Below are positions 2,291 through 7,521 of a stretch of DNA of 34,835 nucleotides, piece by piece (within the stretch, counting starts at the first letter, position 1; the number at the start of each line of letters is the position of its first letter). Below the pieces are notes generated by a model, which was given only the letters and a program-made list of their open reading frames with translations, made no database searches and was not told where the DNA came from. This stretch comes from Actinomycetota bacterium (GTDB taxonomy: Bacteria; Actinomycetota; Actinomycetes; Nanopelagicales; Nanopelagicaceae): NCBI GenBank assembly GCA_016870895.1, contig VGAA01000007.1, positions 1 through 34,835 on the forward strand, read 5' to 3'. The position numbers were made by a program, and so were the translations under genes.

Positions 2291-3462
2291 TGAAACAATT
2301 TTTATTTAGTCTTCGAAGAGTGACATTACTACCAGCACTATCATTTATTTTTGCATTTTTTATAGGTGGCATAATAATTGTTATTTCTGATCCAATTATT
2401 ATGGCTCAACTTAATTCTCCTGGAAAATTTTTAACATCCGCCGGAGCTAGAATTGGTAATTCCTACTTAGCGATTTTTCAAGGATCTATTTATGATGTTA
2501 ACTTAGCAAGAGAATCTGGAGTGATCCGAGGTTTTTATCCATTATCCGAAACTATTGTCACCTCAATCCCATTAATTTTTGCAGGATTAGCTGTTGCGCT
2601 AGCATTTCGAGCAGGATTATTTAATATTGGAGCACAGGGTCAATTTATATTTGGAGCCATTGGAGCTTCATATGTCGGATTTAATTTTGAAATGTCACCA
2701 TTAATTCATGTTCCACTCGTTTTATTAGCTGGAATAATATGTGGTGGAATTTTTGGTGGCATCGTAGGTTTACTGAAAGCAAAAACTGGTGCTCACGAAG
2801 TAATCGTTACAATCATGCTTAACTATGTAGCGGCCTTATTTATTCTTTGGCTACTTAAAACTTCAGTGTTTTTACGGCCAGAGCGGTTTGATCCTATTGC
2901 CCCAGATGTCAATCCAAGTGCACGCTTACCAAAATTACTTGGCGCAGATTTGCGTTTACACTTAGGAATATTTATAGCGTTAGTAGTGACTTATTTTGTG
3001 TGGTGGCTACTAAATCGGAGCACACTTGGATTTAAATTCCGTGCAGTTGGTGCTAATGCAAGTGCTGCAAAGACAGCGGGAATTTCAGTGCCATTAGTCA
3101 CAACCATATCTATGTTTATTTGTGGAGGTTTAGCTGGGCTTGGTGGTGCAGTACATTTAATTGGAACTGAGTATGCCTTAACTGCCGGAGTTGCAGGCAG
3201 TATTGGTTTTGATGCAATAACTGTGGCACTTCTGGGGCAGGCAGCACCAATTGGAACTTTATTTGGAGCTCTTTTGTTTGGTGCATTACAAACAGGAGGT
3301 CGAACATTACTTTCAAATACGGGAACCCCTTCCGAAATTATTCAAGTAATTCAAGCTTTAATTGTCTTATTCATCGCTGCACCTGCATTATTGAAGATGG
3401 TGTTTAGATTAAAGAAGAGCGTAGAGTCTAAATCAATGGCAGCAAAAGGTTGGAACGGCTAA
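2290..3462 (+). CDS. Nucleoside ABC transporter permease 1
   Basis: A 390-aa multi-spanning membrane protein of the BPD_transp_2 type (YufP/NupP-like). The N-terminus has one hydrophobic helix (ALSFIFAFFIGGIIIVI), and a bundle of helices begins near residue 90 (SIPLIFAGLAVALAFRAGLFNIGAQGQ). FRAGLFNIGAQGQ is the usual conserved stretch of this family. The cytoplasmic EAA-like loop lies around LGFKFRAVGANASAAKTAGI. The start overlaps the ATPase stop by one base (TAATG), which implies translational coupling. It pairs with the next gene to form the membrane channel. Confidence 0.93.
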   Translation: MKQFLFSLRRVTLLPALSFIFAFFIGGIIIVISDPIIMAQLNSPGKFLTSAGARIGNSYLAIFQGSIYDVNLARESGVIRGFYPLSETIVTSIPLIFAGLAVALAFRAGLFNIGAQGQFIFGAIGASYVGFNFEMSPLIHVPLVLLAGIICGGIFGGIVGLLKAKTGAHEVIVTIMLNYVAALFILWLLKTSVFLRPERFDPIAPDVNPSARLPKLLGADLRLHLGIFIALVVTYFVWWLLNRSTLGFKFRAVGANASAAKTAGISVPLVTTISMFICGGLAGLGGAVHLIGTEYALTAGVAGSIGFDAITVALLGQAAPIGTLFGALLFGALQTGGRTLLSNTGTPSEIIQVIQALIVLFIAAPALLKMVFRLKKSVESKSMAAKGWNG

Positions 3463-4718
3463 TGTCACAATTGAATGCATTACAGAAGCGAAGACAAAGT
3501 GGTGTCGTAACTATGGCGATACTGCTAGTTATATTTACCTTCATTTTTTATGTAACTTCATCCAGGGTAGAGCCAGTTATATACAGTTTCTATTTAGGTG
3601 ATGAATGGAAGTTAATTAGCGAATGGGAAATTGGCTCTAAATCTGGGGTTATGATTTTTCTTATATTTGCCTTAATCGGTGTGACCATTTCCTTTATCCA
3701 ATTTAAAAATAATAAGAAAATAACTTTAGGAAGTTTGATGTTTGGTTTTGGTTCCATAATGGCATTTTTGAGCTGGGCAGCTGCTGGAAAATTTATACCA
3801 CTAACAGGGTTACTTCAGGCAGCAGTTTTATTAGCCGTTCCACTTATCTTTGGCTCAATGGCTGGGCTACTTTGTGAGAAATCTGGTGTCATAAATATTG
3901 CTATTGAAGGTCAATTGCTCTTCTCTGCATTTGTTTCAGCAGTAGTTGCTAGCCTTTCCCAAAATTTGATTTTGGGATTAATCTCTGCACCAATTGCAGG
4001 TGCACTAGTATCTTGGATTCTGGCTTACTTCTCTATTAAATTCCAAGTAGACCAGGTAATTTTAGGATTTGTTATTAATGTATTAGTCCTAGGATTAACA
4101 AACTTTTTTTACACCGTATTGCTTGTGCCTTATGAAAGTACTTGGAATGCTGCTGGAAGTTTCTCAGCAATTCCAATTCCAGTTTTATCAAAAATTCCCG
4201 TTATTGGTCCGATTTTGTTTAACCAAACTATCATTGTCTATTTAATGTATCTGATAGTTACAGTCATTCAAATAGCTCTTTTCAAATCAAAATGGGGCCT
4301 AAGAACTCGCGCTGTTGGTGAACTACCAATTGCGGCCGATAGCGTAGGAATCGATGTTAATAAATTAAGGTTTCGAAATGTACTTATTGCAGGAGCAGTA
4401 GCGGGAGTCGGTGGTGCTGTTTTCACAATAGGTGCAGTTGGAGTTTTCTCACAATCCATGACTGCAGGCGCAGGCTTTATTGCACTTGCATGTTTAATAT
4501 TTGGAAAGTGGAGTCCTAAGGGAGCCTTTATAGCAGCATTGTTCTTTGGCTTTACCAATAGCTTACAAAGTAATTTATCAATTGCTGGAGTGCCAATTCC
4601 ATCAGAATTTATGTTGATGATTCCATATATTGCGACAATAATTGCAGTCTCAGGACTAATAGGGCGGGTTCGTGCGCCAGCAGCTGATGGAATCCCATAT
4701 CTCCGCGGTACAAAATAA
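3462..4718 (+). CDS. Nucleoside ABC transporter permease 2
   Basis: A multi-spanning permease (YufQ/NupQ-like) with the family motif LLCEKSGVINIAIEGQLL and a coupling-helix region WGLRTRAVGELPIAADSVGID. The ORF track starts at 3450, but the ATG at 3462 forms the same TAATG stop-start overlap seen for the preceding pair, so I prefer 3462 (MSQLNAL), giving 418 aa. About ten hydrophobic segments are visible. It forms a heterodimer with permease 1. The stop codon TAA is part of the left arm of an inverted repeat that reaches into the cdd start. Confidence 0.93.
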   Translation: MSQLNALQKRRQSGVVTMAILLVIFTFIFYVTSSRVEPVIYSFYLGDEWKLISEWEIGSKSGVMIFLIFALIGVTISFIQFKNNKKITLGSLMFGFGSIMAFLSWAAAGKFIPLTGLLQAAVLLAVPLIFGSMAGLLCEKSGVINIAIEGQLLFSAFVSAVVASLSQNLILGLISAPIAGALVSWILAYFSIKFQVDQVILGFVINVLVLGLTNFFYTVLLVPYESTWNAAGSFSAIPIPVLSKIPVIGPILFNQTIIVYLMYLIVTVIQIALFKSKWGLRTRAVGELPIAADSVGIDVNKLRFRNVLIAGAVAGVGGAVFTIGAVGVFSQSMTAGAGFIALACLIFGKWSPKGAFIAALFFGFTNSLQSNLSIAGVPIPSEFMLMIPYIATIIAVSGLIGRVRAPAADGIPYLRGTK

Positions 4719-4756
4719 TCAATATTCATAGGACAATTACCCCATGAATATTGATT
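4717..4756 (+). promoter_or_regulatory. Perfect 13-bp hairpin enclosing the cdd start codon
   Basis: The left arm AATCAATATTCAT (4717-4729) is the exact reverse complement of ATGAATATTGATT (4744-4756). The 14-base loop is AGGACAATTACCCC. The right arm starts on the ATG of cdd, so in RNA the start codon and the next three codons would be paired, while the only Shine-Dalgarno-like AGGA sits at the loop edge. The left arm overlaps the permease stop codon. A role in controlling cdd-deoA-add translation is inference. The repeat could instead be a binding site for a dimeric DNA-binding protein. Confidence 0.7.
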
Positions 4757-5130
4757 GGGAAAAACTCCATAGCGCCGCTAAAGAGGTAATGAAAAATGCA
4801 TATGCACCATATTCTAATTTTAAAGTTGGGGTGGCTGCATTAGTTGATGATGGACGAATAGTCGTTGGTTGTAATAGCGAGAATGCAAGTTATGGTGTTG
4901 GTTTATGTGCAGAGTGCGGCTTAATTTCAAGTCTGACGGCATCAGGTGGTGGAAGATTAATTGCAACAGTTTGTGTTGATAAAAATGGAGAGTATTTATC
5001 TCCCTGTGGAAGGTGCAGACAACTTCTATTTGAGCACGGTGGCAATGAAATGTTATTTATGACTCCAGATGGTCCAAAAAAGTTCTCTACCTTACTTCCT
5101 TGGGCATTTGGCCCCGAGGATCTTAAATAG
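4744..5130 (+). CDS. cdd: Cytidine deaminase
   Basis: A 128-aa protein, the size of the small tetrameric cytidine deaminases. It converts cytidine and deoxycytidine to uridine and deoxyuridine. The zinc site is intact: CAEC (Cys ligand and proton-shuttle Glu, about residues 57-60) and PCGRC (two Cys ligands, about 87-91). The substrate-side motif NSENASYG and the N-terminal YAPYSNFKVG are also present. It follows the nucleoside permease by 25 bases, and its TAG stop abuts the deoA ATG, so it acts on imported nucleosides ahead of phosphorolysis. Its start codon lies in a perfect inverted repeat. Confidence 0.97.
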   Translation: MNIDWEKLHSAAKEVMKNAYAPYSNFKVGVAALVDDGRIVVGCNSENASYGVGLCAECGLISSLTASGGGRLIATVCVDKNGEYLSPCGRCRQLLFEHGGNEMLFMTPDGPKKFSTLLPWAFGPEDLK

Positions 5131-6426
5131 ATGAGTGCAAAATTTACGGCCGTAGAAATTATTTCAGCAAAAAGAGATAAGCAAGAATTAAGTGATGACC
5201 AAATTGATTGGACAATAGAGGCTTATACCAAAGGAATAATCGCTGATGAACAAATGTCAGCATTATTGATGGCAATTTTATTAAACGGCATGAACAACCG
5301 TGAAATTTTTAGATGGACTGATGCGATGATCGCAAGCGGTGAAAAGATGAATTGGTCAATGTTGGATAGACCAACAGTGGATAAGCACTCAACGGGTGGA
5401 GTTGGTGACAAAATCACTCTTCCGCTAGCACCTTTAGTCGCAGCTTGTGGAGCTGCGGTACCACAACTTTCAGGTCGGGGGCTTGGTCATACTGGTGGCA
5501 CACTTGATAAATTAGAATCAATTAAGGGTTGGAAAGCAAGTATTTCTAATCAGGAAATGTTAAAAGTAATACAAGAATGTGGTGCAGTAATTTGTGCCGC
5601 AGGAAGTGGCTTAGCTCCAGCTGATAAAAAACTTTATGCACTTCGTGATGTCACCGGTACTGTGCAAGCTATTCCACTTATTGCCTCATCGATTATGAGT
5701 AAAAAAATCGCTGAAGGTACCCAAGCTCTGATTTTGGATGTTAAAACTGGCTCAGGTGCCTTTATGAGCGAGCCAAAAGATGCAGGGCTGTTAGCTAGGA
5801 CAATGGTGGATTTAGGCAAACGTGCCGGAGTTGAAACCAGGGCTTTAGTTACAGCAATGGATGTACCGCTAGGGCTAACAGTGGGTAACTCGCTTGAAAT
5901 TCGAGAAACTATAGAGGTCCTTTCTGGAGGTGGGCCAAGTGATGTTGTTGAGTTAACTTTAATTTTGGCAAATGAGATGTTAGATGCTGCCAAAGTTAAG
6001 CCTAAAGTTGACCCAGCTACAGCTTTAAAAAATGGCGCAGCTATGGATGTATGGCGCAGAATGATTAAAGCGCAAGGTGGAGATCTAAGTGCTCCACTTC
6101 CTATAGCTAGAGAAAAATTTGAAGTTAAGGCTGCAACTTCTGGAAAACTTTTAACATTAGATGCTCTGAAAGTCGGAGTTAGTGCTTGGCGGCTGGGTGC
6201 TGGCAGACAAAAACAAGGAGATACACTTCAACTCGGTGCTGGAATTGAAATACATGCAAAGCCAGGGGATTTAGTTAAGGAAGGCCAAAGTATTTTGACT
6301 CTACATTCAGATGAAACCTCAAGGTTTGATCGAGCTAATGAGGTTTTATCTGAAGCGTTTACTATTGGTTTAAAAAATCAAAAGATTAATCGCCTACCAC
6401 TTATTATTGAAAGAATTGAGGGTTAA
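5131..6426 (+). CDS. deoA: Thymidine (pyrimidine-nucleoside) phosphorylase
   Basis: A 431-aa member of the thymidine/pyrimidine nucleoside phosphorylase family, which splits (deoxy)uridine or thymidine with phosphate to give base and (deoxy)ribose-1-phosphate. Phosphate-site KHSTGGVGDK is near residue 85. The family signature SGRGLGHTGGTLDKLES follows near residue 113, and LILDVKTGSGAFM near 200. The C-terminal domain ends with the usual biotinyl-like fold region. The ATG directly follows the cdd stop with no gap, and add follows with no gap, so the three genes form one operon. Sequence alone does not separate thymidine-only from broader pyrimidine specificity. Confidence 0.95.
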   Translation: MSAKFTAVEIISAKRDKQELSDDQIDWTIEAYTKGIIADEQMSALLMAILLNGMNNREIFRWTDAMIASGEKMNWSMLDRPTVDKHSTGGVGDKITLPLAPLVAACGAAVPQLSGRGLGHTGGTLDKLESIKGWKASISNQEMLKVIQECGAVICAAGSGLAPADKKLYALRDVTGTVQAIPLIASSIMSKKIAEGTQALILDVKTGSGAFMSEPKDAGLLARTMVDLGKRAGVETRALVTAMDVPLGLTVGNSLEIRETIEVLSGGGPSDVVELTLILANEMLDAAKVKPKVDPATALKNGAAMDVWRRMIKAQGGDLSAPLPIAREKFEVKAATSGKLLTLDALKVGVSAWRLGAGRQKQGDTLQLGAGIEIHAKPGDLVKEGQSILTLHSDETSRFDRANEVLSEAFTIGLKNQKINRLPLIIERIEG

Positions 6427-7521
6427 GTGTCACTTTTAAACACGCCATCACAGGATCAAATCAAGAGATTACCAAAGGCATTACTGCACGATCATTTAGA
6501 TGGCGGTTTAAGGCCACAAACTTTAATTGAAATTGCTGATCGTATTGGTTATAAAAAACTACCTACTAATGATCCAATTGAATTAGCAAAGTGGTTTGAA
6601 GATTCTTGTAACTCCGGTTCACTCGTTAGATATCTTGAAACCTTTGCGCACACAATTGCAGTTATGCAAACAAGAGAAGGAATTATTCAAGTTGCACGAG
6701 AATCTGTTATTGATTTAGCAAGAGATGGTGTTGTCTACGCTGAAGTTAGAGGAGCACCTGAGTTACTAACTGAACAAGGTTTAACTTCAGATCAAGTGGT
6801 TGAGGCTACGCTTGAGGGTTTCAAGCAAGGAATGTCTGAGGCACAAAGAGAAGGAAATACGATTAGAGTTGAATCTTTACTTTGTGGAATGCGTCAAAGT
6901 AATAGATCAATGGAAGCAGCTAAAGCCGTAGTCAAGTATCGAGGGCAGGGTGTTGTTGGATTTGATATAGCGGGGCCAGAAGATGGTTTTCCACCGATAA
7001 ATCAACTTCAAGAGTTTGAGTTCTTAAAAAAGGAAAATGCACATTTCACCATTCATGCTGGCGAAGCATTTGGATTACCCTCTATTTGGCAGGCAGTTCA
7101 GATTTGTGGTGCTGAAAGAATTGGCCATGGGGTAAGAATCGTGGAAGATATTGATTTCTCATCAAAAGAACCAAAATTAGGACTTCTATCTAGATATATT
7201 CGTGACCGAAGAATTGCACTTGAGCTGTGCCCAACCTCCAATCTTCAAACAGGTATCGCAAAAATTTACTCAGATCATCCAATTGGAAAGCTAGCTAAGT
7301 TAAAATTTCATGTTACGTTAAATACTGATAATCGATTAATGAGTAATACATCTATGAGCCATGAGATGCAAGAATGTGTAAAATCTTTTGGTTGGACTTT
7401 TGCAGATCTACAAGCAGTCACAGTTAATGCTTTAGAGAGCTCATTTATTGACCACGAAGATAAGCTTGAAATTATTGAGAAAACTGTAAAACCGGCATAC
7501 TCTAAAATATCTGCCGAGTAG
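6427..7521 (+). CDS. add: Adenosine deaminase
   Basis: A 364-aa adenosine deaminase (adenosine/deoxyadenosine to inosine/deoxyinosine). The GTG start follows the deoA TAA directly. Zinc and catalytic motifs are in order: HDHLDGG near residue 20, HAGEAFG near 210, the conserved GHGVRI near 235, ELCPTSN near 265 and NTDNRLMS near 295. The NTDNR form in place of NTDDP is typical of actinobacterial enzymes. Its inosine product suits the purine nucleoside phosphorylase encoded on the other strand, whose purine site looks 6-oxopurine specific. The stop abuts the stop of the convergent gene with no spacer. Confidence 0.96.
   Translation: MSLLNTPSQDQIKRLPKALLHDHLDGGLRPQTLIEIADRIGYKKLPTNDPIELAKWFEDSCNSGSLVRYLETFAHTIAVMQTREGIIQVARESVIDLARDGVVYAEVRGAPELLTEQGLTSDQVVEATLEGFKQGMSEAQREGNTIRVESLLCGMRQSNRSMEAAKAVVKYRGQGVVGFDIAGPEDGFPPINQLQEFEFLKKENAHFTIHAGEAFGLPSIWQAVQICGAERIGHGVRIVEDIDFSSKEPKLGLLSRYIRDRRIALELCPTSNLQTGIAKIYSDHPIGKLAKLKFHVTLNTDNRLMSNTSMSHEMQECVKSFGWTFADLQAVTVNALESSFIDHEDKLEIIEKTVKPAYSKISAE

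Follow-up and report, generated by a model that had tools for sequence, protein, structure and literature searches.

The junction between an ABC transporter permease gene and the cytidine deaminase gene cdd carries a real, genus-specific cis element, an inverted repeat that starts in the permease stop codon and ends inside the first codons of cdd. With moderate confidence, slightly better than even, we read this repeat as a cis-acting RNA hairpin that couples translation of cdd, and of the abutting deoA and add, to translation of the permease by RNA unfolding. The window, by which we mean the whole stretch of 34,835 nucleotides that was analyzed, belongs to the genus Candidatus Nanopelagicus (acI-B), and the relatives compared with it include Candidatus Nanopelagicus and BACL4.

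The operon and its junctions

The operon runs in the order BMP-type binding protein, ATPase, permease, permease, cdd, deoA, and add (Table 1). The junctions from the ATPase gene to add measure about -4 to 0 nt, with the single exception of the permease-cdd junction at +25. The NCBIfam matches of the transporter genes are to a "putative B6" transporter and fall below cut-off; we infer the substrate of the transporter from the linked enzymes. In several genomes (L211-L215), a second BMP-like gene is found between trpS and the binding-protein gene of the operon, and it is absent in G030 (L213).

Table 1. Positions of the hairpin and of the surrounding genes in the window.
Feature	Positions	Strand	Basis
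ABC transporter permease gene, upstream partner (stop TAA, 4716-4718)	3462..4718	+	ORF; NCBIfam best match ABC_B6_perm_1, below cut-off
Permease stop codon, at the hairpin base; -28 to -26 of cdd in 21/23 genus members	4716..4718	+	
Left arm of the perfect inverted repeat; reaches 4732 in the extended repeat	4717..4729	+	
Shine-Dalgarno-like AGGA (AGGAG in most relatives); GG pairs with CC of the right side	4730..4733	+	
Hairpin loop ACAATTAC; AATTA (4735-4739) invariant in 20 congeners	4733..4740	+	
CCC, right-hand inner part of the extended stem; 4741-4742 paired to GG 4731-4732	4741..4743	+	
Right arm, from the cdd start codon through codon 4 to the first base of codon 5	4744..4756	+	
cdd, cytidine deaminase (gated gene in the proposal)	4744..5130	+	NCBIfam PRK05578 above cut-off, E 6e-53
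deoA, thymidine/pyrimidine phosphorylase; begins right after the cdd stop	5131..6426	+	
add, adenosine deaminase; begins right after the deoA stop	6427..7521	+	

A second structure lies between the binding-protein and ATPase genes, where a perfect 13-bp hairpin (738-768) is followed by a T run. It is kept in relatives with arms that have changed yet remain complementary (GGGTAGGTTA/TAACCTACCC and GGGTGAGTTA/TAACTCACCC), and its counterpart in L034, GGATGAGTTA/TAACCCATCC, contains one G-U pair. This hairpin looks like an attenuating terminator or a 3'-end stabilizer, either of which would allow the binding protein to be made in excess over the other operon products.

The inverted repeat at the cdd start

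(i) Repeat and fold. The arms AATCAATATTCAT and ATGAATATTGATT are exact reverse complements of 13 bp around a 14-nt loop, and the right arm begins on the A of the cdd ATG and comprises nucleotides 1 to 13 of the gene, exactly as first described. The left arm begins within the permease stop codon, a feature that the initial annotation did not notice. The repeat can be extended (4717-4732/4741-4756) to 16-nt arms that are 94% complementary and enclose an 8-nt loop. The AGGA motif sits at the loop edge, as had been claimed, with its GG paired to CC, and the base preceding the cdd ATG is C or T across species.

The initial annotation considered such a repeat unlikely to be due to chance, and the background estimates bear this out. 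From Markov-1 resamples, 0.020 perfect repeats of at least 13 bp with a loop of 3 to 30 nt are expected per window, compared to two observed, namely, the repeat at the cdd start and the terminator-like hairpin mentioned above. Taken together, the window and 400 kb of a relative contain nine perfect repeats of at least 12 bp, and only the one at cdd straddles a start codon. The predicted RNA fold of the junction encloses the cdd start codon and ribosome site, with an AUG pairing of 0.98 and a z-score of -3.65, and none of 200 shuffles was equally stable. In a comparison of folding energies (from -30 to +16) over 421 sampled gene starts, taken from the window and 20 stretches of 20 kb of one relative (G001) with a home-made gene finder that may have misplaced some of the starts, cdd of that relative ranked first (-19.7 kcal/mol) and cdd of the window third (-16.6 kcal/mol), against a mean of -5.9.

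Several other readings of the site were discarded. An intrinsic terminator is not apparent, as on the + strand the stem is AT-rich and is followed by GGGAAAAA, without a U tract, and the site is not among the terminators listed on this strand. Continuation of the permease frame through the spacer is contradicted by a stop codon conserved in 21 of the 23 genus members. Last, the antisense ORF starting with MNID that had been pointed out exists in the window, but it is not conserved, its ATG (CAT on the + strand) being CGT in most relatives, and we rejected it on this account.

(ii) Conservation. The cdd gene is present in 23 of the 25 genomes of the genus, and in 21 of these 23 the permease stop is located exactly 25 nt before the cdd ATG. 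Along the 22 aligned junctions, 85% of 374 cells can pair in the register of the window repeat, compared to 30 to 52% when the arms are slid by 1 to 3 positions. The same hairpin was predicted independently by RNAalifold, with two pairs in which both bases have changed (UA to CG at columns 9/42 and UA to AU at columns 13/38). These are compensatory changes of the kind that the initial annotation had proposed to look for, but covariation as a whole does not rise above that of shuffles, 30 of 500 of which reached the observed pairing and 51 of 500 the covariation score (permutation P of 0.08). Power is low here because the protein start M-[E/N/D]-I-x-W leaves the right arm hardly any freedom to vary, and the evidence for the stem therefore consists of conserved complementarity and not of clear covariation.

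Of the genomes compared, just the window and its near-twin G042 have the perfect repeat. The AUG is predicted to be at least 0.93 paired at 37 C in 11 of the 23 species; 5 others (L006, L008, L009, L012, and L013) favor a competing pairing between the left arm and GAGAATTA that masks the Shine-Dalgarno side, and in the remaining 7 neither of the two helices is strong. The element has been lost in L004. The permease frame of L018 (G053) stops 4 nt short of cdd. In this genome (about 200-262), AATGAAT at the cdd start codon pairs with another left arm of 7 nt, ATTCATT, possibly a re-evolution of occlusion. Another pairing, of GGTAAT at the permease end with ATTACC in the loop and right side, was rejected by eye, as it is broken in the window and in L014/L020.

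Outside the genus, the same gene order is found with permease and cdd joined by an overlap (TAATG or ATGA) or by a few bases, and these genera lack the repeat because they have no spacer. The initial annotation had named relatives of the same gene order as the place where its reading could fail, and their testimony is divided: the register is kept across the genus, but the other genera do not have the repeat, L004 has lost it, and in roughly half of the congeners the fold is weaker or has a competitor.

Proposed translational coupling by RNA unfolding

The repeat is nonrandom, is anchored at the start codon, and keeps its register throughout the genus. Its most plausible role is therefore that of a translational control element between the transporter and the catabolic genes, which agrees with one of the roles initially suggested for it. 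In its closed form, the hairpin hides the cdd start codon and part of the Shine-Dalgarno sequence and would thereby inhibit initiation in the cell. A ribosome finishing the permease would open it. Judging by ribosome footprints in general, a ribosome with the permease stop codon in its A site should cover about -31 to -16 in the coordinates of the cdd ATG and would thus lie over the left arm. With the left arm covered, the right arm, the ATG, and the AGGA would become single stranded, and initiation at cdd would be possible. The fold starts exactly at the permease stop codon, and therefore cdd is probably made only just after the permease has been translated. No gap separates deoA or add from the stop before it, so that the hairpin could also gate the whole catabolic block.

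Blocking the left arm in the fold model reduced the AUG pairing of the window from 0.98 to 0.42 and, averaged over the 23 species, made the ribosome site cheaper to open (5.1 instead of 16.8 kcal/mol). Removal of one arm gives part of this drop directly, and we thus take the result as consistent with coupling and not as proof of it. In several species without a strongly paired AUG, the pairing of the AUG is not diminished by blocking the left arm.

The RNA-unfolding model of coupling is documented, also for positive spacings, with coupling seen at +23 to +52 nt, although it usually weakens with spacing (PMC12548453). The kind of mechanism is known. What coupling leaves unexplained is the conserved loop, as an invariant loop is not needed for it, and this counts against coupling as the full explanation.

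The conserved spacer and other explanations

(i) A possible bound factor. The spacer from -20 to -2 surpasses every other 19-nt stretch of the permease end and cdd in conservation, with an identity of 0.91 compared to 0.47 at four-fold sites (20 species), and AATTA at -9 to -5 is invariant in these 20 species. By comparison, within one set of genomes the identity over -20 to -1 is 0.93 for cdd and only 0.43 for the leader of the ATPase gene in the same operon. An invariant loop is demanded by neither the stem nor the Shine-Dalgarno core, and spacer and loop together are more conserved than the stem alone needs, hinting at a bound factor. A trans-acting factor, such as a catabolic enzyme or another RNA-binding protein, might bind the hairpin and its loop, stabilize the closed form, and repress cdd-deoA-add. 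The conservation of spacer and loop favors such a translational operator, as does the occurrence of the element once per genome, which local control predicts, and phage coat protein at the replicase start offers a working analogy (PMC10610835). We nevertheless regard it as unlikely, as there is no candidate binder and the Shine-Dalgarno sequence accounts for part of the conservation. In addition, no Rfam cis-regulatory RNA matched the window above its gathering score, and around the site only chance-level matches appeared. As a wider and equally tentative proposal, the site could be a genus-specific cis-regulatory RNA that combines the start-codon stem, the competing Shine-Dalgarno stem, and an invariant AAUUA loop bound by a putative factor. 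If true, a streamlined freshwater bacterium would control nucleoside catabolism within the operon, at the level of translation.

(ii) A possible DNA site. A transcription regulator acting at an internal cdd promoter could also recognize the dyad, which has AATT exactly at its center and a strongly conserved left arm and center. This is improbable, as conservation is asymmetric about the dyad (-11 is invariant and -4 variable) and the inner columns exchange A and G opposite U, a change that keeps RNA pairing and breaks DNA symmetry. No promoter-like match was obtained at the site, and an internal cdd promoter was accordingly dismissed. The regulator site suggested in the initial annotation is likewise not supported as a multisite regulon operator, as each genome has only one convincing copy of the core, and six genomes share no second copy within 3 mismatches.

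(iii) A possible switch between two helices. The left arm (A) has two potential partners, the start codon (A:C) and the Shine-Dalgarno/loop segment (A:B, TAATTTTC/GAGAATTA), and a signal might set the balance between the two helices. A:B is the dominant form predicted for the five species listed above and A:C for ten others, and A:B pairs 78% of cells in register versus 26 to 64% when slid. However, A:B shows no covariation (0 double changes), a single form is predicted in most species, and there is no ligand pocket. Both helices mask part of the initiation site, and therefore no ON state is evident, which leaves a switch of this kind about as improbable as the DNA site.

(iv) The hypothesis of no structural function. 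The left arm could be kept just for ribosome binding, with its complementarity inherited by descent, as the weak covariation and the weak predicted folding in about half of the genus would allow. The rarity of such repeats in the resamples and the extreme fold among the 421 gene starts speak against this explanation, and the ribosome site of the ATPase gene in the same operon is not conserved in the same way, so we consider it a little more doubtful still.

(v) Temperature. Although a start-codon hairpin is the usual form of RNA thermometers, the temperature response contemplated initially, taken here as an opening of cdd translation by warming, is very improbable, as the helix does not melt in the physiological range and the AUG stays at least 0.94 paired in the window and 1.00 paired in G001 from 5 to 55 C, far above lake temperatures.

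Significance and comparison with known systems

Actinobacteria of the acI lineage rank among the most abundant bacteria of fresh water and express their transporters strongly (PMC5574706). Our search of the literature on regulation in Nanopelagicus, including the balance of uptake and catabolism within an acI operon, returned nothing. The conserved 25-nt element replaces the overlap of the neighboring genera and makes this balance testable. Under the coupling reading, it also provides a natural comparison of the same gene pair coupled in two ways, by overlap in other genera and by a hairpin in Nanopelagicus.

RNA thermometers of the fourU and ROSE types place a stem over the ribosome site, as is the case at cdd. 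The cdd stem differs from them in that it does not melt in the physiological range and has no Rfam match.

The loop of the cdd hairpin resembles the AUUA-type loop of the MS2-type replicase operator. In this operator, too, the 5' end of the gene folds together with the untranslated nucleotides before it into a hairpin whose stem includes the start codon, and its short purine-rich left side is similar to that of the cdd hairpin (PMC10610835). We do not claim homology, as the cdd hairpin has a longer stem and an 8-nt loop, is located on a bacterial chromosome, and has no known binding protein.

Among the closest parallels to the coupling that we propose are rpmI-rplT, phage f1 VII-IX, and MS2 coat-lysis, in which an inhibitory structure also covers the downstream ribosome site and the upstream gene ends at or in the structure (PMC12548453). 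Compared to these RNA-unfolding systems, the coupling predicted for cdd would work at a spacing fixed at 25 nt, through a helix that starts in the stop codon itself and with a spacer and loop that are unusually conserved.
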